Both the position numbers and the translations under genes were made by a program. Positions 2,543 through 12,076 of a DNA stretch of 64,000 nt are shown here, in pieces. The stretch is from contig JALEFZ010000035.1 of NCBI GenBank assembly GCA_022760475.1, forward strand, positions 62,001-126,000. The letters are read 5' to 3'. Under the pieces are notes generated by a model. That model saw only the letters and a program-made list of their open reading frames with translations, was not told where the DNA came from and made no database searches. The DNA is from Bacteroidia bacterium. Its GTDB lineage: Bacteria; Bacteroidota; Bacteroidia; J057. The first letter of the stretch is position 1; every line of letters starts with the position of its first letter.

Positions 2543-2728
2543 TTAAAGAGCCTGACCAGGCTCTATGTTTCTGCTGAGGCGATCTATCGCAATTTTGGCG
2601 TCATGTACCCTTGCACCAGTCATCTCGATGTAGTGCTTAATGGCAGCAATCTTACCCTTGTATGTCAGCAGTTGCAAAATATCTCTCTCAACTTGAGGAG
2701 CGATCGGCTTGTATTGTACTCTTACCAT
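2543..2728 (-). CDS. Small protein resembling the ribosomal L7/L12 C-terminal helix pair
   Basis: 61 residues. The stretch GKIAAIKHYIEMTGARVHDA resembles the conserved part of the L7/L12 C-terminal domain (KIxxIKxYREATGxxLKEAKxxV), a small alpha/beta fold also found in stand-alone Bacteroidota proteins of unknown role. It lacks the L7/L12 N-terminal dimerisation region and hinge, so it is not the ribosomal stalk protein. No signal peptide. It is alone between the PcfJ operon and the 125-aa gene, all on the minus strand. The resemblance is by eye only. Confidence 0.5.
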   Translation of the reverse strand: MVRVQYKPIAPQVERDILQLLTYKGKIAAIKHYIEMTGARVHDAKIAIDRLSRNIEPGQAL

Positions 2729-3284: not shown

Positions 3285-3368
3285 AGGAGGGTGAACCTTA
3301 AAAAATATAATTTGTTTCTCTCCACGTCCCCAACCACCCTGTCCCACATCCGGACGTAAAGAGCAAGG

Positions 3369-3440
3369 CACGGCAGGTAGGAATCGAACCTACTTATGCT
3401 GGTTTTGGAGACCAGAGCCTGACCATTAGGCTTCTGCCGT
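3369..3440 (-). tRNA. tRNA-Trp (CCA)
   Basis: 72 nt. Perfect 7-bp acceptor stem ACGGCAG/CTGCCGT, anticodon loop CTCCAAA in a 5-bp stem, canonical T-arm, and G73, the expected discriminator for bacterial tRNA-Trp. Last tRNA of the array in the direction of transcription. Confidence 0.95.
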
Positions 3441-3592
3441 GTATTTGGAGAGAATTTGAAAGTAAATTCTCTCCATGAGCTATCATTGGCGTTTTTCGCC
3501 ATCGGTGTCTTGCAAGTCTGTTTGCCATCATCAGGTTGATGATGAAGGTGAATACGTTTCTCATAGTTTTGGTAGTTAATATTTCACAAATG

Positions 3593-3668
3593 GGGTGAGC
3601 CGAAGGGATTCGAACCCTTACTTCCGGAACCACAATCCAGCGTGCTGCCCTTACACCACGGCCACCAT
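3593..3668 (-). tRNA. tRNA-His (GTG), acceptor stem irregular
   Basis: The anticodon arm (CTGGA, loop TTGTGGT, TCCGG) gives GTG, and the T-arm and 4-bp D-stem are normal. The acceptor does not close cleanly: 5' strand GGTGGCCG faces 3' strand CGGCTCACC, which pairs only if the U of the 3' strand is bulged out (GGTG-GCCG with CGGC-U-CACC). One nucleotide is therefore extra in the 3' strand or missing in the 5' strand. Ends are approximate. Confidence 0.8.
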
Positions 3669-3769
3669 ATTGGAGATAGACCTACTTTTTGAATGTTCTT
3701 GCTTATTGTTTTTCAGTAACAACCTATTCATTATCGTCTACCCCCTCTAAGAATGGAATTTATATCGGG

Positions 3770-3844
3770 TACCCGGAGTGGGATTCGAACCCACAGGAAA
3801 ACAGATTTTAAGTCTGTCGCGTCTGCCTATTTCGCCATCCGGGC
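3770..3844 (-). tRNA. tRNA-Leu (TAA), short variable arm
   Basis: 75 nt. Acceptor GCCCGGA/TCCGGGT, A73, Leu-type D-arm (GCAGACGC), anticodon loop CTTAAAA giving TAA, T-arm GTGGG/CCCAC. The variable region is only about six nucleotides (TTTCCT) with no helix, whereas bacterial tRNA-Leu normally has a long class II arm. Confidence 0.9.
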
Positions 3845-3849
3845 AAAGG

Positions 3850-3921
3850 TTGCGGGTACAGGAGTCGAACCTGTTTCTGGGGCTTATGAGACCCCCGAGA
3901 TAGCCATTTCTCTAACCCGCA
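3850..3921 (-). tRNA. tRNA with CAT anticodon (elongator Met or Ile2)
   Basis: 72 nt. Acceptor TGCGGGT/ACCCGCA with a paired U1-A72 and A73, anticodon loop CTCATAA. The 1-72 pair and the lack of three G-C pairs next to the loop (the last pair is T-G) argue against initiator tRNA. Sequence alone does not tell elongator Met from lysidine-modified Ile2; the array needs the latter to read AUA. Confidence 0.9.
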
Positions 3922-3927
3922 ATGTTG

Positions 3928-4000
3928 TGCACCAGGCAGGAATCGAACCCGCATCTTCTGGGTGGAAACCAGGTATCTTCAGCCATTGGACCACTGATGC
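3928..4000 (-). tRNA. tRNA-Gly (TCC)
   Basis: 73 nt. Acceptor GCATCAG/CTGGTGC (one G-T pair), anticodon loop TTTCCAC giving TCC, T-stem GCGGG/CCTGC. The outermost anticodon-stem pair is a C-A mismatch. A73 rather than the common U73. Confidence 0.9.
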
Positions 4001-4014
4001 ATATAATTAGGTGG

Positions 4015-4102
4015 CGGAAGCGATGGGACTCGAACCCACAAGTCCCTGTTAGGGGAGTCCCCGATTAGCAGTCGGGTGCCTTACCATTCGGCTCACACTT
4101 CC
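4015..4102 (-). tRNA. tRNA-Ser (GCT)
   Basis: 88 nt class II tRNA. Acceptor GGAAGTG/CGCTTCC, anticodon loop CTGCTAA in a CCCGA/TCGGG stem, long variable arm (about 20 nt), G73. It is preceded directly by a strong terminator (4103-4127), so it may begin a separate transcript with the Gly-to-Trp tRNAs. Confidence 0.95.
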
Positions 4103-4127
4103 AAAAAAGGGGCGGGAAGATCCCGCC
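4103..4127 (-). terminator. Intrinsic terminator inside the tRNA array
   Basis: On the minus strand a perfect 7-bp hairpin (GGCGGGA, loop TCT, TCCCGCC; bases 4111-4127) is followed by CC and six T (4108-4103). It ends transcription coming from tRNA-Arg(TCT) just before tRNA-Ser(GCT) and therefore also defines the 3' end of whatever the 4128-4311 spacer encodes. Confidence 0.8.
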
Positions 4128-4311
4128 GGGCTTTAGCGTGATTGGATTACCTCCTTTGTTTTTAGCCTTTTCCTTTGTCGTATTTTTAATCTTCACTCTG
4201 CTTTTCACCTTCGAAACAATACTTTCCCGAACTTTTGATCTCAGCCAGATAGACCAGTCGAAAGCCGTATGCTAACTGGCCTTCTTGCTAATTTTGAAAT
4301 GCTCAAGCATG
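4128..4311 (-). ncRNA. Unassigned structured spacer RNA between tRNA-Arg(TCT) and a terminator
   Basis: A 184-nt gap, long for this array, ending in a strong terminator. On the minus strand it begins with a short AT-rich stretch followed by a hairpin with a 7-bp stem (GGCCAGT with ACTGGTC, one G-T pair) and a loop of about 16 nt. No open frame has a convincing start. It may encode a small RNA co-transcribed with the tRNAs, or be a spacer only. Confidence 0.35.
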
Positions 4312-4384
4312 AGATCCCGGTAGGACTCGAACCCACACATATCTGGTTAGAACCCAGATGCTCTTCCAGTTGAGCTACGGGACC
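4312..4384 (-). tRNA. tRNA-Arg (TCT)
   Basis: 73 nt. Acceptor GGTCCCG/CGGGATC (one G-T), anticodon loop GTTCTAA in a TCTGG/CCAGA stem, T-stem GTGGG/CCTAC. The discriminator reads as U73, which is unusual for tRNA-Arg. Confidence 0.93.
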
Positions 4385-4390
4385 TGAATG

Positions 4391-4475
4391 CGGAAGGAGA
4401 GGGACTCGAACCCCCAAGTCCTTTCAGACATCACTGTTTTCAAGACAGGTGCAATAGCCATTCTGCCATCCTTCC
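4391..4475 (-). tRNA. tRNA-Ser (TGA)
   Basis: 85 nt class II tRNA. Acceptor GGAAGGA/TCCTTCC, anticodon loop CTTGAAA, long variable arm, G73. Reads the UCN box. Confidence 0.95.
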
Positions 4476-4480
4476 GTTTG

Positions 4481-4553
4481 CAATCCCGAGGAGAATCGAA
4501 CTCCTATCCCCACATGGAAAGTGTGGTGTCCTAAGCCATTAGACGACGGGATC
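4481..4553 (-). tRNA. tRNA-Glu (TTC)
   Basis: 73 nt. Acceptor GATCCCG/CGGGATT (terminal G-T), anticodon loop CTTTCCA in a CCACA/TGTGG stem, G73 as usual for Glu. First tRNA of the left half of the array, just beyond the serpin promoter region. Confidence 0.95.
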
Positions 4554-4614
4554 ATTTATTTTTTCAACAGCAGTTTTCATTTGGAATGCGTCTCCCCTAT
4601 GTTACTTTTAACCA

Positions 4615-5826
4615 ATGAAGACGATGAAACTCAAATTGCTTTTTCCAATTATCCTAATTTCAGGCCTCCTGTTTTCTTGTAGCCAGAATCCTCCCCTACC
4701 TGTTGGCAGTTTTGAGGATGTGAGTGAAGCCAACAATGATATGGGCTTCAGGATGTTAAAAAGACTTCAGGAACAGGAACCTGATAAAAACATTTTTATT
4801 TCGCCTTTCAGCATTACCTCAGCCCTTAGCATGACAGCCAATGGTGCCGAAGGAGCGACACAAACCGAGATGTACGAAGCCTTGGGACTATCCAAGCTCA
4901 CTGAGACCGAAGTCAACAGCCAATACAAAAACATTCTTACAGCACTGCTTCAGTCCTCTCAAGGATTAGATTTTAGCATTGCCAACGGAATCTTTTATCG
5001 AGATGGTTTTAACCCTAAAACGGACTTCCTGAATCAGGCCAATGATAATTTCGAAGGCAAAGTTGAAGGCCTCGACTTTGATGATCCATCTGCCAAAGTC
5101 CAAATCAATGAATGGGTTGAGAACCAAACTGAAGAGCGCATCAAGGATATGATCTCCAATATTTCTGCTGACGACATGATGTTCTTGATCAATACCATTT
5201 ACCTTAAAGGCCCATGGCTCAATGGTTTTCCTGAACGAAGTACCCGCAAGCAAATTTTCACCCTTAGTGATGGCAGCCAGGATTCCACAGATATGATGTG
5301 GCAGGATAGCCAATTTCCTTACTACCAAGGCTCAGACTTTGATGCAGCTTCTTTCTACCTGGGCAAAAATAAAGCTCGTTTTTCTGTCGACATTATCCTT
5401 CCTAAAGAAAGCAAAGGCCTTGAAGATGTTGTGAAGAATATTAGCTTGAGTTCTTATCAAAGTGCTATTGATGGAATGGACTCAAGCAGGATCATGGTTC
5501 AATTTCCCAAGTTGGAGCTTGACTATGAAGAACAACTGGGAGACGTCCTCAAGGAAATGGGCATAAAAAAAGCCTTTCAGGAACGAGAAGCAGACCTGAG
5601 CGGAATAGCTGAAGGGCAAAACCTGTTTATCTCAAGGGTAAAGCATAAAACTTTCCTAAAGGTAGACGAAACGGGCCTGGAAGCATCAGGAGCTACATCG
5701 GTAGGTGTCTCTGTAACCTCACTCCCACCCTCATTCTTCATGGATCACCCGTTTTTGATGATCATCCGCGACATCGAATCAGGCACCATTTTGTTCATGG
5801 GTAAAGTCGAAAATCCAAACGCCTAA
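4615..5826 (+). CDS. Serpin-family protease inhibitor, lipoprotein
   Basis: 403 residues. The N-terminus is a lipoprotein signal (hydrophobic stretch ending in LLFSC), so the mature protein should be lipid-anchored outside the inner membrane. Serpin hallmarks: FISPFSITSALSMTANGAEG near the N-terminus, NTIYLKGPW in the middle, and the C-terminal FFMDHPFLMIIRD block. Aligning the reactive loop with classical serpins (hinge VDETGLEASGATSV from residue 350) puts P1-P1' at Thr368-Ser369 followed by LPP; small hinge residues support an inhibitory serpin, although P14 is Leu rather than Thr/Ser. Small P1 residues suit elastase- or subtilisin-like targets (inference). It sits in the opposite orientation inside the tRNA array, ends in a hairpin terminator, and breaks the array in two. 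Bacterial serpins are sporadic and often thought to be acquired. Confidence 0.93.
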   Translation: MKTMKLKLLFPIILISGLLFSCSQNPPLPVGSFEDVSEANNDMGFRMLKRLQEQEPDKNIFISPFSITSALSMTANGAEGATQTEMYEALGLSKLTETEVNSQYKNILTALLQSSQGLDFSIANGIFYRDGFNPKTDFLNQANDNFEGKVEGLDFDDPSAKVQINEWVENQTEERIKDMISNISADDMMFLINTIYLKGPWLNGFPERSTRKQIFTLSDGSQDSTDMMWQDSQFPYYQGSDFDAASFYLGKNKARFSVDIILPKESKGLEDVVKNISLSSYQSAIDGMDSSRIMVQFPKLELDYEEQLGDVLKEMGIKKAFQEREADLSGIAEGQNLFISRVKHKTFLKVDETGLEASGATSVGVSVTSLPPSFFMDHPFLMIIRDIESGTILFMGKVENPNA

Positions 5827-5841
5827 ATGTTGGCAGAATAG

Positions 5842-5876
5842 GTAGAGACGTTCCGTACAACGTCTCTACACTTTTT
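5842..5876 (+). terminator. Terminator after the serpin gene
   Basis: An 11-bp perfect hairpin, GTAGAGACGTT (5842-5852) with AACGTCTCTAC (5859-5869), 6-nt loop, then a short T-run. The GTAGAGACG arm is a motif often repeated in Bacteroidota genomes. Confidence 0.7.
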
Positions 5877-5898
5877 CATCCTTTCGGCATCTCTCGGG

Positions 5899-5970
5899 AG
5901 ACCTTGGCAGGATTCGAACCTGCGACCGGCTGGTTCGTATCCAACTGCTCTTCCTCTAAGCTACAAGGCC
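5899..5970 (-). tRNA. tRNA-Arg (ACG)
   Basis: 72 nt. Acceptor GGCCTTG/CAAGGTC (one G-T), anticodon loop ATACGAA in a GTTGG/CCAGC stem, T-stem GCAGG/CCTGC. A34 would need TadA editing to inosine. Discriminator reads U73. Confidence 0.93.
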
Positions 5971-5987
5971 ATTCTTAAAAAATTGAG

Positions 5988-6057
5988 AGTCCGGAGTGGG
6001 AGTCGAACCCACCTGTAACAGTTTTGCAGGCTGATCGCACGCCATGTGCATCCGGAC
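5988..6057 (-). tRNA. tRNA-Cys (GCA)
   Basis: 70 nt. Acceptor GTCCGGA/TCCGGAC, U73 (Cys identity), D-stem GCAC/GTGC. The loop reads CTGCAAA, but the closing 31-39 pair is C-A and another stem pair is T-T, leaving a weak anticodon stem. Confidence 0.88.
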
Positions 6058-6095
6058 CAATGAGCCGGCCGTAGCCGACGTTCATAGTTGTGGAG

Positions 6096-6171
6096 TGGAC
6101 GAGGTGGGAATCGAACCCACCACAATTTGTTTGCAAGACAAATTCGCCAAAGCCTTGGGACATGCCCGCCC
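6096..6171 (-). tRNA. tRNA-Ala (TGC)
   Basis: 76 nt. Anticodon loop CTTGCAA in a strong 7-bp stem (AATTTGT/ACAAATT); acceptor GGGCGGG/CTCGTCC contains the G3-U70 pair that defines alanine identity; A73. Position 8 is C instead of the nearly universal U8, which normally makes a tertiary pair. Confidence 0.88.
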
Positions 6172-6175
6172 ATGG

Positions 6176-6248
6176 TATCCCCGACAGGGCTTGAACCTGT
6201 AACCCCCTGGTTAAAAGCCAGGTGCTCTGCCAATTGAGCTACGGAGAT
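6176..6248 (-). tRNA. tRNA-Lys (TTT)
   Basis: 73 nt. Acceptor ATCTCCG/CGGGGAT, anticodon loop CTTTTAA in a CCTGG/CCAGG stem, A73. Structurally normal. Confidence 0.95.
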
Positions 6249-6264
6249 AAGAACAATCAAAAAG

Positions 6265-6336
6265 CGACCCCGGTAGGATTCGAACCTACAACCACTTACT
6301 TAACAGGAAAGTGCTCTGCCATTGAGCTACAAGGTC
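6265..6336 (-). tRNA. tRNA-Asn (GTT)
   Basis: 72 nt. Acceptor GACCTTG/CGGGGTC (two G-T pairs), anticodon loop CTGTTAA, G73. One T-T mismatch in the anticodon stem (CTTTC/GTAAG). Confidence 0.92.
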
Positions 6337-6349
6337 AGGTCAACAAGAG

Positions 6350-6423
6350 TAGGAATGGCAGGATTCGAACCTGCAACCTTCTGGTTCTAAGCCAGACGCC
6401 TCTGCCAATTGGGCTACATTCCC
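6350..6423 (-). tRNA. tRNA-Leu (TAG), class I shape
   Basis: 74 nt. Acceptor GGGAATG/CATTCCT, A73, anticodon loop CTTAGAA in a TCTGG/CCAGA stem, T-stem GCAGG/CCTGC. The D-arm (GCCC...GGGC-like) and the 5-nt variable region are those of an ordinary class I tRNA, not of a class II tRNA-Leu. The anticodon reads CUN codons. Confidence 0.88.
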
Positions 6424-6441
6424 AAAATGGGGCTACTTGTA

Positions 6442-6492
6442 ACATCTGACTTTAAAGGAGTCGAACCTTCATAGCCACGAAGTATCAGATGT
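6442..6492 (-). ncRNA. 51-nt mini tRNA-like RNA (acceptor and T-arm only)
   Basis: On the minus strand an 8-bp perfect stem (ACATCTGA/TCAGATGT, 6485-6492 with 6442-6449) encloses about 35 nt. These hold a T-arm (GAAGG, loop TTCGACT, CCTTT) and a short CTTC/GAAG hairpin that competes with it. There is no D-arm and no anticodon arm. It lies in register between tRNA-Leu(TAG) and tRNA-Pro. It is either a deleted pseudo-tRNA or a minimal tRNA mimic. Confidence 0.55.
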
Positions 6493-6507
6493 CTACGGCA
6501 CCCGCTG

Positions 6508-6579
6508 TAAGGGTGACAGGAATCGAACCTGCGCCTTCTTGGTCCCAAACCAAGTGTCCAGCCATTGGACCACACCCTT
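6508..6579 (-). tRNA. tRNA-Pro (TGG)
   Basis: 72 nt. Perfect acceptor AAGGGTG/CACCCTT, anticodon loop TTTGGGA in a CTTGG/CCAAG stem, A73. Reads the CCN box. Confidence 0.93.
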
Positions 6580-6594
6580 ATATAATCTTTCTTG

Positions 6595-6676
6595 TGGGGA
6601 TGGTAGGATTCGAACCTACTCAGCCTGCGCAACGGATTTACAGTCCGCCCCAACTCTCCAACTTTGGCGCATCCCC
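6595..6676 (-). tRNA. tRNA-Tyr (GTA)
   Basis: 82 nt class II tRNA. Acceptor GGGGATG/CATCCCC, anticodon loop CTGTAAA in a GCGGA/TCCGT stem, long variable arm, A73. Confidence 0.94.
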
Positions 6677-6683
6677 AAATCTG

Positions 6684-6918
6684 TAGTCCCTACGGGATTC
6701 GAACCCGTACTCCCTAACGGGCCGACAGGCTCCAAGTGCGCTTCCCTACTAAGCTTCTTTAGAGAGGCTGTTCGGTGCTGTGGGATACTGGACTGTTCAT
6801 CCGATTTCTCCCTTCCGCGAATCCTACCCATTTGTTCGCTCAGATCAAACGGGATTTTCCTGTCTGTCCACGGCTGAGTGAACACTTACCGCAGCACTTC
6901 CTTTTATGCTAAGGGACC
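6684..6918 (-). ncRNA. 235-nt tRNA-like RNA with a large internal extension
   Basis: The two ends look like one tRNA: 5' GGTCCCT pairs with 3' AGGGACT (one G-T), followed by A73; the 5' end continues into a D-arm (GCAT...GTGC) and the 3' end is preceded by a normal T-arm (ACGGG, TTCGAAT, CCCGT). A GCGG/CCCGT helix could form the top of an anticodon stem. Between them lie about 160 extra nucleotides instead of a 7-nt loop, including a long-range 10-bp helix with one mismatch (GTTCACTCAG with CTGAGCGAAC). No G3-U70 pair and no tag-like reading frame, so not tmRNA; no group I intron core seen. It may be an interrupted tRNA or a tRNA-mimicking RNA related to the neighbouring Ro60 system. Confidence 0.55.
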
Positions 6919-6923
6919 TAAGG

Positions 6924-6998
6924 TAGGTTTGGCAGGAATCGAACCTGCGACCCTCTGTTTGTAAGACAGATGCTCTGAACCGACTGAGCTACAAACCC
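6924..6998 (-). tRNA. tRNA-Val (TAC)
   Basis: 75 nt. Acceptor GGGTTTG/CAAACCT, anticodon loop CTTACAA in a TCTGT/ACAGA stem, T-stem GCAGG/CCTGC, A73. Structurally normal. Confidence 0.95.
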
Positions 6999-7012
6999 AT
7001 GTGAAGACATGG

Positions 7013-7084
7013 TGAGTTTGGCAGGATTTGAACCTACGACCGTCTACGTATCAGGCAGATGCTCTACCGCTGAGCTACAAACTC
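7013..7084 (-). tRNA. tRNA-Ile (GAT)
   Basis: 72 nt. Acceptor GAGTTTG/CAAACTC, anticodon loop CTGATAC in a TCTGC/GTAGA stem, A73. Decodes AUU and AUC. Confidence 0.95.
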
Positions 7085-7109
7085 AAATAAAATTACTCAT
7101 AGACTGTTG

Positions 7110-7181
7110 TGGAACAGTGTGGATTCGAACCACCCCCTTCCGGGCTTCAACCGGACGCTCTGCCACCTAAGCTACAGTTCC
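7110..7181 (-). tRNA. tRNA-Phe (GAA)
   Basis: 72 nt. Anticodon loop TTGAAGC in a TCCGG/CCGGA stem, A73. There is one T-T mismatch in the acceptor (GGAACTG/CTGTTCC) and one G-A mismatch at the base of the T-stem. Confidence 0.9.
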
Positions 7182-7202
7182 AAAATAAATCAGGGTAAAA
7201 GC

Positions 7203-7300
7203 GAACTTCGACCGGGGAATCGCAATGGGGATTTGCACCCCTCCCCGATAGCAATGCCATCGAGGCCCTACCCCTTTATGAGAGCGAAGTAACGAAGTTC
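7203..7300 (-). ncRNA. 98-nt tRNA-like RNA without a usable anticodon
   Basis: A perfect 8-bp terminal stem (GAACTTCG/CGAAGTTC) encloses a D-arm-like hairpin (GCTC...GGGC), a hairpin in the anticodon position whose 7-nt loop GCATTGC lacks the universal U33, and a T-arm-like hairpin (GGGG, TGCAAAT, CCCC) extended by an outer GGGGA/TCCCC helix. The order of arms is that of a tRNA, but the linkers are too long and the anticodon loop is wrong. It contains one copy of the GTTACTTCG motif shared with the 7498-7571 and 7610-7731 RNAs. Confidence 0.45.
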
Positions 7301-7317
7301 TACGACACCTGAATTCG

Positions 7318-7389
7318 AGGCTCCGGAGGGATTTGAACCCTCACCAACTGATTACAAGTCAGTCGTTCTGCCGATTAAACTACAAAGCC
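7318..7389 (-). tRNA. tRNA-Thr (TGT)
   Basis: 72 nt. Acceptor GGCTTTG/CGGAGCC, anticodon loop CTTGTAA in an ACTGA/TCAGT stem, U73. Reads the ACN box. Confidence 0.94.
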
Positions 7390-7396
7390 TTCTAAG

Positions 7397-7467
7397 ATGC
7401 CCAACCAGGATTCGAACCTGGAGCCCCACAGCCAAAATGTGGTGTCCTGCCTTTAGACCATTGGGCA
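7397..7467 (-). tRNA. tRNA-Gln (TTG)
   Basis: 71 nt. Perfect acceptor TGCCCAA/TTGGGCA, anticodon loop TTTTGGC in a CCACA/TGTGG stem, T-stem CCAGG/CCTGG. U1-A72 as in many tRNA-Gln; the discriminator reads U rather than G. Confidence 0.92.
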
Positions 7468-7497
7468 GAATTGGCGGTAACTTGCGAAAAGAGTGTG

Positions 7498-7571
7498 GAA
7501 TATCGACGGGATTCGAACCCGCTACCATCTGATCCGGAATCAAATGCTCTAACCAAATGAGCTACGAAGTA
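7498..7571 (-). tRNA. tRNA-Arg (CCG)-like, acceptor stem broken
   Basis: D-arm (GCTC/GAGC), anticodon arm (TTTGA, loop TTCCGGA, TCAGA; anticodon CCG) and T-arm (GCGGG/CCCGT) are all tRNA-like, but the acceptor strands TACTTCG and CGATATT pair at only four of seven positions. It is either a decayed tRNA or one partner of the tRNA-like RNA family here. Both acceptor strands recur, joined by two bases, inside the RNA at 7610-7731. Confidence 0.65.
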
Positions 7572-7609
7572 ACCCTTTCCTAACGACACGCCTATCTGTA
7601 AATATCTTT

Positions 7610-7731
7610 GGGGCAACTACCGAGAAAAGACTATTGGCGCTCTACCACCTGAGCTACAGGGTCACCCCTGGCAGGACTCGAACCTGCGACCACCCGAATA
7701 TCGATCGAAGTAACTTTTCTCTACGGCACCC
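7610..7731 (-). ncRNA. Candidate Y RNA with circularly permuted tRNA domain
   Basis: On the minus strand the 5' and 3' ends pair by a perfect 8-bp helix (GAGAAAAG/CTTTTCTC, 7714-7721 with 7622-7629), extended outward by GG/CC and GGG/CCC pairs with bulges. Inside, in order, are a T-arm (GCAGG, TTCGAGT, CCTGC; 7671-7687), an acceptor-like 5-bp hairpin CAGGG/CCCTG closed by a GUGA tetraloop (7657-7670), and a D-arm (GCTC...GAGC; 7639-7654). A normal tRNA has the reverse order, so the RNA termini fall where the anticodon stem would be. From family knowledge, bacterial YrlA-type Y RNAs carry a tRNA-like module and are usually encoded next to the Ro60 gene, which is the case here. The bulged terminal helix would be the Ro60-binding stem (inference). 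Confidence 0.65.
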
Positions 7732-7744
7732 AAAATTTTTGATG

Positions 7745-7813
7745 AAACGCCAATGGGAGTTGAACCCATATCTACCTTCACAGGCCGCTTTTATTCCTTT
7801 AAGCTATGGCGTT
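7745..7813 (-). ncRNA. Anticodon-less tRNA-like RNA
   Basis: 69 nt. Perfect acceptor AACGCCA/TGGCGTT, 8-9 linker TA, D-stem GCTT/AAGC, T-arm ATGGG, TTCAACT, CCCAT. Where the 17-nt anticodon arm should be there is a 4-bp hairpin GCCT/AGGT capped by a GUGA tetraloop (7774-7785). It can fold as a tRNA but cannot decode a codon. The same GUGA loop closes the acceptor-like hairpin of the candidate Y RNA next to it. Confidence 0.65.
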
Positions 7814-7867
7814 TGTGCCCTTGAATCGTACGTCAAAGTGCTTTGCCTGAGGCAATCCCAGGCCGAA

Positions 7868-7972
7868 CATGACTGTTCAGCGTCATTTCATGACTTTTCT
7901 TTGTTGTGAAACATTAAGCTGAGCTTAAATGCTCCCTGGCTTCGTAATTGTCATGATGCCTGAACAGCATCT
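7868..7972 (-). ncRNA. Structured RNA candidate between tRNA-like RNA and tRNA-Asp
   Basis: A long-range helix of 8 bp (CTGTTCAG 7873-7880 with CTGAACAG 7960-7967) and, after an internal loop, 6 bp (CATGAC 7889-7894 with GTCATG 7950-7955) closes a loop holding a second hairpin (CATTAAGC...GCTTAAATG with one bulge). There is no tRNA T-arm and no open frame. A stem with an internal loop closing a large loop is the general plan of a Y RNA, and the location beside the Ro60 gene fits. The strand is assumed from its neighbours. Confidence 0.4.
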
Positions 7973-7998
7973 TCTGTCTGACCAGTATGGTCATCTTG

Positions 7999-8070
7999 CG
8001 ACCCAGACGGGAATCGAACCCGCTTCTACCACATAGACAGTGTGGCGTCCCGCCATGGGACCTCTGGGTC
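7999..8070 (-). tRNA. tRNA-Asp (GTC)
   Basis: 72 nt. Acceptor GACCCAG/CTGGGTC, anticodon loop CTGTCTA in a CCACA/TGTGG stem, T-stem GCGGG/CCCGT, G73 as expected for Asp. First tRNA downstream of the Ro60 gene, 69 bp after its stop codon; the gap holds a GTAGCG/CGCTAC hairpin. Confidence 0.95.
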
Positions 8071-8139: not shown

Positions 8140-9663
8140 TTATACTTCGATGTCTTCAATTTGGGCCAGGACTTTCTCCCTGCCCTCAAGTGATGATAGG
8201 ATGTCAAAAATTTTCTCTGACCATCCCCCAATCAGGAAGACATCTTTTCTTATCGATTTCAATGGAGCCTGCCCATATCCAGCCAAATCAAAAATGTAGA
8301 TCTTGGCATCAGGTGCGATCCTTTTGTATTTATTCCAATACATTTCAATCGTCTCATTGCTCCCGTAATTCGAGTTCCAGAGTTGGCAATCTGTGAAGAC
8401 AAAAACCTTGTCTACAATGATTCTCCTCTTGAATAACTCCCTGATAGCCAAGTAACCATTGGTAGAATGCCCTACTTTCACCCGCTTCATGGCTTCGACA
8501 TTGGCAAGGATTCCCTTGTTTCCCAAAGCGACCGTTTCATAAGTCTCTCCAAATAAGCCAGTGATCACATGCTTGCATTTGCTTTTTAGCAAACTCGCCA
8601 GGACAAGGCCTACTTCCATTAGCCTGATCTTTGATTTGCCTGAAATTGCCTGATCCATTGAACCCGACATATCCGCAGCAATCAAAATCCTGGTATCCAG
8701 CTCAAAACCCTTAAGGTTTTCAACTGAAGCAAGCATGGCTCCTTCAAGGGCATCCAGGAAATAGGCGCTATATCCTGATTTGTGGTCTCGAAGCTCCTTA
8801 TAGGCCGAATAGTACCTGAATGGCAATTGCTTGGATTTCTTCACGGCTGAAGGACTTGCCAAATACCTGGCTGCCTTCTCTACCGCCTCTCTCGAAACTC
8901 CATAATCCAACAGATTTCTGAGGTTTCTTAGCAATGCCATGTATGCAAGTTTCTCACTCAGGATCAACTCTTCCCACTTCTGACGAAAAGCTGCCTCCTT
9001 GGCCTTTTGGCTGGCAAATTTCTCCTGCCCTGCTTTTGATAGCTCAGTTTCCCATGTATAAGGCACTGAAAGGCTACCTGAAATGATTTTATCAAAGATC
9101 TCTTGTTGTTTTGCATCCTTTGCCTTTGGGTGAACCAGAAATAACGCATCTCTCAAGCTTACTTCTGCTGCCCTGTTATACTTTGCAAATTGATACTCAT
9201 CAAATCGGTTAAATGCCTCGGCTACTCCCTTCTGCAACTGCTTCGAAAGCCTTCCCAGCTTTTTGGCACCCGACCTTTTATTTGTTATCTGGTAGTAAGC
9301 CAGCAATTCAGTAATCTCATCAGGCCTCTTAATGACCCTCGATAATGCTTTCCTGACCAGGCTATCTCCATTGTGAACCTTCGCTAATTCCACCAGCAAT
9401 ACTACTGGAACTGTTCTGAGGTACATTTTTTCCCTTGCATACACTGCTAGCTTGGCTACGAAGCCAGGATCCTTATTCGCGATCTGTTCTACCAGCTCAA
9501 TGATCCTTTTTAACCTTTCATCTCCGCTTTCATAAAATGATTTTTGCAGGAGGGTCGACACTGTAGCAGTATATAGTTCCAACTTCGAGCTTAAGGTGTA
9601 TGCCAAAGCACCTTCATGATTATTCGTAACAGTTTGTCCCTTTTTCTTTAGATTAAATCTCAT
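8140..9663 (-). CDS. rsr: TROVE domain protein, bacterial Ro60 orthologue (Rsr)
   Basis: 507 residues, the normal size for bacterial Ro60. Residues 1 to about 345 form the TROVE domain, a ring of helical HEAT-like repeats that binds Y RNA on its outside and the single-stranded ends of misfolded RNAs in its hole; the diagnostic SFYESGDERL block is at about 42-51. Residues from about 325 form a vWA domain with the MIDAS motif DMSGSM (Asp331). No signal peptide, so cytoplasmic. In Deinococcus, Ro60 with Y RNA assists RNA maturation and, with PNPase, structured-RNA decay, mainly under stress. Here the gene lies at the head of the tRNA array on the same strand, 69 bp from tRNA-Asp, so gene and array could share a transcript. 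Several tRNA-like RNAs follow, one with Y-RNA architecture. Start at 9663 is the first Met and aligns with the family N-terminus. Confidence 0.93.
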   Translation of the reverse strand: MRFNLKKKGQTVTNNHEGALAYTLSSKLELYTATVSTLLQKSFYESGDERLKRIIELVEQIANKDPGFVAKLAVYAREKMYLRTVPVVLLVELAKVHNGDSLVRKALSRVIKRPDEITELLAYYQITNKRSGAKKLGRLSKQLQKGVAEAFNRFDEYQFAKYNRAAEVSLRDALFLVHPKAKDAKQQEIFDKIISGSLSVPYTWETELSKAGQEKFASQKAKEAAFRQKWEELILSEKLAYMALLRNLRNLLDYGVSREAVEKAARYLASPSAVKKSKQLPFRYYSAYKELRDHKSGYSAYFLDALEGAMLASVENLKGFELDTRILIAADMSGSMDQAISGKSKIRLMEVGLVLASLLKSKCKHVITGLFGETYETVALGNKGILANVEAMKRVKVGHSTNGYLAIRELFKRRIIVDKVFVFTDCQLWNSNYGSNETIEMYWNKYKRIAPDAKIYIFDLAGYGQAPLKSIRKDVFLIGGWSEKIFDILSSLEGREKVLAQIEDIEV

Positions 9664-11344: not shown

Positions 11345-12076
11345 ATGCTCAAAAAGAGTTTTAGCCTATTCTCTCTACTATTTTTATTTTTTCCTCTAAC
11401 CGCCCAGAACAATGACCTTGATAGCTTGGATATCGTAGGAATAGCCTATGTCAATTTTGACGATCCCAGCCAAAATAGGAAGATCACCATTGATAATCGC
11501 CTGGAAAACTGTTTCCAAATTACCAGGAACATCCACAGGTTGAACCTCGACATGCCCAAAAATCGATTTTTAGCCTTACAACGCGACAAAAACAGGCATA
11601 TTGTAGGCCTTTTGCCCCTGATAATCAAACAAATGCAACAAGGAAAGCTCATAGCCAGAGACGCCAAGGACAACAAAACGCCCTATACATATGAAGACCT
11701 CTTGACAGAAATGTTTTATGTAGAAGAAATGGAGCAGGAACTATATGCAGATACTGTCGATGCGAGTATATTGACCTGGGCAAATCTGGCGACCAGGATA
11801 GACCTGATTACATCAGAATGTTTTGACAAAAATAATTCAAGATGGCGCCGAATTACCCATTCTGTCAGGATCAATTACTGCGATCCCAAATATCCAAAAA
11901 GGGTTACCGCCATGATGATTTTTCCGTTAGAAGACATTGCCATACTTCTTAAGTCATTGAATTATAGGAATGGGCGAAATGCCCTGGATTTGCTTCTTGC
12001 CAATCAATATGTCAGTTTCCCTTTTGACCCCAAATTGGATGGCAAATATACCCTTACTAAGCCAAATAAAGATTAG
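11345..12076 (+). CDS. Hypothetical secreted protein, weakly GldN-like
   Basis: 243 residues with a Sec signal peptide (basic MLKKS start, hydrophobic stretch ending in LTAQ). The segment NRFLALQRDKNRHIVGLLPLI and the following 'GKLIARDAKDNKTPYTYEDLL' region recall the GldN/PorN repeat of the gliding/T9SS motor (a basic-aromatic residue run, a helix, then a short loop before a T-E/D-x-L helix), but similarity is weak and I do not assign it. No lipobox, so periplasmic. 10 bp after the Smr gene, so probably co-transcribed. Confidence 0.6.
   Translation: MLKKSFSLFSLLFLFFPLTAQNNDLDSLDIVGIAYVNFDDPSQNRKITIDNRLENCFQITRNIHRLNLDMPKNRFLALQRDKNRHIVGLLPLIIKQMQQGKLIARDAKDNKTPYTYEDLLTEMFYVEEMEQELYADTVDASILTWANLATRIDLITSECFDKNNSRWRRITHSVRINYCDPKYPKRVTAMMIFPLEDIAILLKSLNYRNGRNALDLLLANQYVSFPFDPKLDGKYTLTKPNKD

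Follow-up and report, generated by a model that had tools for sequence, protein, structure and literature searches.

The analysed window, a stretch of 64,000 nucleotides from a Bacteroidia genome (100% complete, 0.42% contaminated, 96 contigs), carries on its minus strand the gene for a Ro60/Rsr orthologue of 507 aa (8140..9663; Pfam TROVE 1.4e-32, vWA_Ro60 5.7e-8). A tRNA array lies on the same strand, with the Ro60 gene on its 5' side (3367..8070; ARAGORN, Rfam). It comprises 23 tRNAs called by ARAGORN and a tRNA-Cys(GCA) at 5988..6057, which ARAGORN missed and which scored 31.1 bits against the Rfam tRNA model in the genome search. Reading from ro60 towards its 3' side, tRNA-Asp is followed by a 184-nt gap, by the anticodon-less tRNA-like element described here (7745..7813, minus strand) and then by Y RNAs and tRNAs down to 3367. 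The element is a member of a Ro60-linked RNA cluster, as a TROVE/Ro60 gene adjoins it on the same strand, together with Y RNAs.

The array covers all 20 amino acids and the fetched stretches of the genome hold 33 more tRNAs outside it; therefore, it looks accessory. Since its tRNAs are well kept, it does not appear to be in general decay: among 21 canonical array tRNAs, U33 is found in all 21, a 7-pair acceptor in 20 and a 5-pair T-stem in 20 (a count that leaves out five low-scoring predictions, namely the element, the Arg embedded in a Y RNA, 6769, 6552 and Cys, as well as the tRNA-His at 3591). Additional features were observed in and around the array. A serpin gene sits inside it on the opposite strand (4615-5826, plus; Pfam 8.9e-109). 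Small proteins of 61-62 aa resembling the L7/L12 C-terminal domain are encoded beside the array in the window (2543-2728, minus) and inside the array of locus L026 (L026:17437-17625), with Pfam E-values of 0.07 and 0.0004, respectively, that fall under the cut-off. The gap between tRNA-Asp and the element (7814-7997, minus) contains many inverted repeats, and by eye its motif TTGACGTA is shared with L026 at the same place. Further, a segment at 6685-6921 (minus) combines tRNA-like acceptor and T-arm ends with a long structured insert at the site of the anticodon arm; it had no Rfam match at E <= 1, and L069 has a block like it near 11640-11760, on the 5' side of a Y RNA. Sections of PMC7790460, PMC8394870 and PMC12282133 describe Y RNAs in the vicinity of rsr and within RNA-repair operons. 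The titles and abstract openings found on Ro60 and tRNA arrays did not describe the association in Bacteroidota, which we do not thereby claim to be unpublished, and the main text of PMC5966550 does not mention TROVE, Ro60 or rtcB.

The element had been noticed in a sequence-only reading, whose coordinates proved right, with the minus strand as the coding strand. It begins with the 5' acceptor strand AACGCCA (7813-7807), U8-A9 (7806-7805), a D-arm (GCUU at 7804-7801, loop AAAGGAAUAA at 7800-7791 including G18G19, and AAGC at 7790-7787) and G26 (7786). A GNRA-capped mini-hairpin, GCCU-GUGA-AGGU (7774..7785), replaces the 17-nt anticodon arm. It is followed by the variable nucleotides AGAU (7773-7770), a T-arm (AUGGG at 7769-7765, loop UUCAACU at 7764-7758, CCCAU at 7757-7753), the 3' acceptor strand UGGCGUU (7752-7746) and the discriminator U (7745). 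The next nucleotide is C (7744), as it is after the discriminator in 21/21 canonical array tRNAs. The perfect acceptor, D- and T-stems of that reading were borne out (7/7, 4/4 and 5/5 pairs; 16/16 Watson-Crick), and so was, from both sequence and fold, the 4-bp arm with its GUGA loop, which has three Watson-Crick pairs and an outermost G.U pair under a 4-nt GNRA loop.

The Rfam tRNA model (RF00005) matched the element with 45.4 bits (gathering threshold 29, E = 1.9e-6), which ranks it 23rd of the 24 tRNA matches in the window, and ARAGORN left it uncalled in the window scan. On the minus strand, the minimum-energy structure and the centroid structure both form this cloverleaf. The fold energy (z = -1.74; 8 of 200 shuffles equally stable) is weak on its own, so the case that the element is not a chance fold rests on the Rfam score. 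By inspection, the contacts of a tRNA elbow are possible (A15-U48, U8-A14, G18G19, G53-C61 and U54-A58). Taken together, Rfam score, fold and inspection place the acceptor, D- and T-arms and the elbow nucleotides of a decoding tRNA in the element, while its 5-bp anticodon stem, 7-nt loop, U33 and anticodon are all absent. G3-U70 and a long variable arm are identity elements that do not depend on the anticodon; neither these nor any other anticodon-free identity element was seen in the element by eye. Since the anticodon loop is missing, the element almost certainly does not decode, and we discarded a decoding function on this ground. A reading of the letters CUGUGAA as a His anticodon loop was likewise discarded: by inspection the stem would be unpaired, and the array already has a tRNA-His at 3591-3666.

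Four Y RNAs, all with the Y motif, are part of the array on the minus strand. Y RNA (a) (7606..7735; Rfam YrlA, covariation) consists of a circularly permuted tRNA module, with the order T-arm, closed acceptor hairpin, D-arm, enclosed by a Y stem of the Ro60 type, and a 9-nt spacer (7736..7744) separates its stem from the discriminator of the element. The Rfam YrlA family (RF02553) matched it at 7636-7694 with 44.6 bits (E = 1.4e-7), below the gathering threshold of 69. Y RNA (d) (7473..7592; Y motif before the D-arm, fold) has a Y stem with a non-permuted tRNA module. Y RNA (b) (7190..7312; Y motif, fold z = -2.75) lies directly 3' of tRNA-Thr, and the short Y RNA (c) (6429..6504; Y motif, fold) directly 3' of tRNA-Pro. 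The "tRNA-Arg(CCG)" that ARAGORN and Rfam report at 7497-7571 appears to be the core of Y RNA (d), and the tRNA-Val(tac) at 3398 of L004 looks likewise like the core of a non-permuted Y RNA.

The permuted fold was examined in an alignment of Y RNA (a) with 29 sequences from Ro60 loci (30 taken of 47 one-per-locus permuted candidates, 64 candidates overall). In 28 of 32 pairs both sides had changed, and the share of paired cells, 97.6%, exceeds the 73.8% of shuffles and the 42-49% reached with a slid partner. The second topology is non-permuted: a Y stem stands where a tRNA has its acceptor stem and encloses the D-arm, anticodon arm and T-arm; we chose six examples by inspection from 18 rows (window 7473-7592, L004, L006, L009, L026 and L073). 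Motif scans detected Y elements in 77 of 81 sources and gave 284 hits, with the outer stem paired in 190 of them; a looser pattern gave 402 hits in 101 sources. Both patterns are regular expressions that miss and over-call, and their hits are not curated genes. One later locus sample overlaps in part with the 80 loci sampled earlier, and the counts include L020, several tRNAs of which carry palindromic inserts by eye.

Two further observations concern the inner modules of Y RNAs. In many permuted Y RNAs (alignment A1, columns 33-52), strings of real anticodon loops stand just after TACTTCG, for example CTGTTAA (tRNA-Asn), CTTTTAA (Lys) and CTGTCAC (Asp); judged by sequence, these strings could make permuted Y RNAs baits for anticodon nucleases. 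In 12 of 101 sources, Y RNAs contain no tRNA and have a universally conserved 23S rRNA segment, AACGGTCCTAAGGTAGC, as inner module (L002:14864, L014:13052, L021:12388, L024:13043, L028:13585, L035:14562, L043:13644, L054:13453, L058:14368, L063:13707, L072:4953 and L077:13629). By inspection, all copies lie just 3' of a Y 5' stem. The L014 copy has 96.7% identity to E. coli 23S rRNA over 30 nt, and no Rfam family matched the 23S-segment Y RNA at E <= 1. To judge from its sequence, this is an rRNA-mimicking Y RNA. The cluster of Ro60, tRNAs and Y RNAs that includes it is more surprising than the single element.

The element stands apart from these RNAs. Motif scans found no Y stem motif (GTGYCGTA...TACTTCG, TTRCC) around 7745-7813, YrlA (RF02553) did not match it at E <= 1, and an enclosing Y stem was rejected because none was found.

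We searched for relatives of the element. DNA searches returned only its own copy among 60 relatives, where the genus is represented by one genome, that of the window itself, and no match among plasmids. The nearest array, that of L026 from the same family, has other tRNAs and no such element after tRNA-Asp. A pattern with short D-to-T spacing matched in at least 122 of 395 genomes of the phylum, and no second free-standing anticodon-less case was found among the matches listed. These included 14 tRNA-like rows fetched for inspection (L113-L126): in ten (L114-L123) the match spans the junction from one permuted tRNA unit to the next in a larger conserved RNA with tandem units, L124 is a tRNA interrupted by NN, and L125 and L126 look like chance. 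Candidates that had stood out at first look (L043, L058, L065, L077 and L020:14327) were rejected as such junctions too. As no homologue of the element was found, selection on it is not proven. The larger RNA, with at least two tandem permuted units, was observed in L114-L123, in L043, L058, L065 and L077, about 3-4 kb 5' of ro60, and at L020:14300-14600. It has the order T-arm, closed acceptor, D-arm, linker, T-arm, closed acceptor, D-arm, anticodon-like arm, and in L043, L065 and L077 Rfam recognised only single tRNA pieces of it.

Tetraloop-capped arms resembling that of the element occur in other Ro60-linked RNAs. Four of the six non-permuted Y RNAs have a 7-nt anticodon loop containing U33, and in the other two the place of this loop is taken by a tetraloop: UUCG on 5 pairs in L009 and GAAA on a long stem in L073. 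A third case comes from L186, a 183-kb viral contig (IMG/VR) with a Ro60 relative and a same-strand tRNA array that begins 5' of ro60. Just 3' of this ro60 lies a Y-like RNA whose module bears GUAA on 6 pairs; Rfam scores the module as tRNA with 44 bits and ARAGORN reports it as "tRNA-???". The region L186:4467-12500 also holds ORFs that by eye resemble an RtcB RNA ligase and a metallo-beta-lactamase fold, along with Y-like RNAs, and the Y-motif pattern itself had no match in viral contigs. Across the Y hits, 21 distinct hairpins with a 4-nt loop lie just 5' of the T-arm, and seven of them are capped by GNRA (6) or UNCG (1), compared with 10 of 199 (about 5%) in shuffled controls. As many of the scanned hairpins are chance finds, this excess is an enrichment and not proof for each hairpin. 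The enrichment suggests a tendency among Ro60-linked tRNA modules to swap the anticodon loop for a stable tetraloop when decoding is unneeded, and the element would be a free-standing instance of it. The parallels in L009, L073 and L186 all lie inside Y RNAs, and none of them is free-standing with a 7-bp acceptor. By eye, tRNA-Pro-like array members at L009:11964-12036 and L049:12299-12371, the latter just 5' of a Y RNA, have C at position 33, and because of this they are probably poor decoders.

The position of the element was compared with the spacing of Y RNAs behind tRNAs. In arrays of at least 4 tRNAs in Ro60 loci of Bacteroidota, 18 of 36 Y RNAs (the element not among the 18) begin no more than 15 nt from the 3' end of a tRNA, compared with a mean of 2.1 and a maximum of 9 in 2000 trials of random placement. 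Two further tRNA-Y pairs were found in L174, from a later sample. The other half of the array Y RNAs have no tRNA directly in front. The element occupies the tRNA slot before Y RNA (a), 9 nt from its stem; counted to the Y motif the distance is 16 nt, longer than the usual 5-9 nt.

Of the known systems, the mascRNA and menRNA of MALAT1 and MEN-beta share with the element a tRNA-like acceptor, T-arm and elbow and the lack of a conserved anticodon loop. According to the sections of PMC11693755 drawn on here, mascRNA is recognised by RNase P and RNase Z through its elbow, a step for which the anticodon loop is unneeded, and processing by these enzymes sets the end of another RNA, as we propose for the element. 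The mascRNA/menRNA are mammalian, have a reduced D-arm and a longer anticodon-equivalent stem and free an upstream RNA, whereas the D-arm of the element is complete and its neighbour is a downstream Y RNA; the mascRNA-menRNA family (RF01684) did not match the element at E <= 1. YrlA (RF02553) is similar in being Ro60-linked and in having D-, T- and acceptor arms without decoding, but it is permuted and built on a Y stem, while the element follows the order of a tRNA, its acceptor ends are open and it lacks a Y stem. The "tRNA-Other" of Bacillus cereus is also a tRNA-like RNA outside translation; in contrast to the element, it has a Trp anticodon and belongs to a longer Fur-regulated RNA, as described in part of PMC3399842. 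Accessory arrays such as the Anabaena trn operon and the Mycobacterium units, redundant and with ~26 tRNAs, resemble that of the window. The portions consulted report, for the array tRNAs of mycobacteria, an anticodon domain with structural differences (PMC12803027) and, for the trn operon, a response to translational stress and a repressor, TrcR, common with rtcB (PMC10272220); these portions name no Ro60, Y RNAs or anticodon-less member, unlike the window.

Our preferred reading, which we hold tentatively, takes the element as a tRNA-like RNA of the Ro60-Y RNA-tRNA cluster that does not decode, is kept for its elbow and acceptor and probably serves as punctuation that frees a Y RNA. The RNA cluster would be co-transcribed from ro60 onward, and RNase P and RNase Z would recognise the acceptor-T-D elbow of the element and cleave it on either side. 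Cleavage on the 3' side would then give Y RNA (a) a 5' end 9 nt ahead of its stem. Without a decoding job, the anticodon arm may have been trimmed down to a GNRA tetraloop, the smallest cap that is stable. The element would thus act as punctuation in the way that tRNAs may for other array Y RNAs and mascRNA does for MALAT1, and once released it may also act as a small tRNA mimic. We infer this job in Y RNA end-processing from the slot before Y RNA (a) and the mascRNA precedent, and recognition by the enzymes that process tRNA ends is the use we find most plausible for the element. That punctuation is its main role is a guess we favour without much assurance; selection seems to us slightly more likely than not to maintain its present form. 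The intact fold, the redundant and well-kept array, the tRNA-Y spacing and the recurrent tetraloop caps support the preferred reading. The lack of a homologue, the longer spacer, the Y RNAs without a preceding tRNA, the confinement of the parallels to Y RNAs and the sufficiency of one deletion count against it.

Such a deletion would make the element a recent pseudogene, an accessory array tRNA that lost ~5 nt at once (31-39 -> GUGA), with stems that have yet to decay and a GNRA loop that arose by luck. This is a serious possibility, although we rate it as rather doubtful. A single event would account for everything, the tRNA is redundant in the genome, none of the relatives, phylum matches listed or plasmids searched shares the form, and a GNRA or UNCG cap in about 5% of the shuffled controls makes luck possible. 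The sequence-only reading had argued that random decay would break the stems as well. This argument fails, because one recent loop deletion of ~5 nt gives the same sequence with all stems intact, and the stems therefore point to either selection or youth. Its proposal of a tRNA shape kept without decoding remains likely as far as it fits the element, the Ro60 gene, the Y RNAs and the recurrent caps, but intact stems are insufficient proof of selection. Against a pseudogene, no parent is in sight: the element reaches at most 60% identity to any core tRNA, on which ground we rejected a recent copy of one, and 59% to the array tRNAs, whereas identities between the remaining array tRNAs and the closest core tRNA range from 66 to 79%. 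In addition, all 16 core pairs are intact, the remaining array is well kept, and a similar arm recurs in Ro60-linked RNAs.

Alternatively, an element without an anticodon loop would resist anticodon nucleases. Its place 3' of ro60 and the enrichment of GNRA/UNCG caps in Y modules are consistent with this, as is the precedent of YrlA, which sections of PMC7790460 and PMC8394870 describe as modified by DusA and TruB via its D and T loops, with a tRNA-like domain proposed to inhibit an anticodon nuclease. We regard this explanation as unlikely, as the element has no Y stem motif and the relatives, phylum matches listed and plasmids provided no second free-standing example. As the element lacks the Y stem motif of its neighbours, Y RNA (a) on its 3' side would be the better candidate if Ro60 handles this stretch. 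An assembly or base-calling artefact that dropped some bases from an otherwise normal anticodon loop would fit the occurrence in only one genome among the 60 relatives searched, but is very improbable given the quality of the genome and the unlikelihood that a gap of several bases yields a paired stem with a GNRA cap.

Returning to the preferred reading, decoding-free, tetraloop-capped tRNA shapes may form a class encoded by the Ro60 clusters of Bacteroidota and of one or more phage contigs, located within Y RNAs (L009, L073 and L186) or, like the element, free-standing, with the elbow as a processing or docking module; we put this forward as a speculative proposal, which we think rather less likely to hold than to fail. 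If true, the element would be a free-standing bacterial tRNA in which a GNRA hairpin has been swapped in for the anticodon arm, and a bacterium would use the tRNA fold purely for processing or docking, inside a Ro60 cluster. The bacterial function of Ro60 is still poorly understood. If real, the finding makes it testable that Ro60-linked tRNA arrays and Y RNAs are one system, in which tRNA maturation enzymes would excise Y RNAs and the Y RNAs would display the surfaces of tRNA and, in some species, of 23S rRNA.
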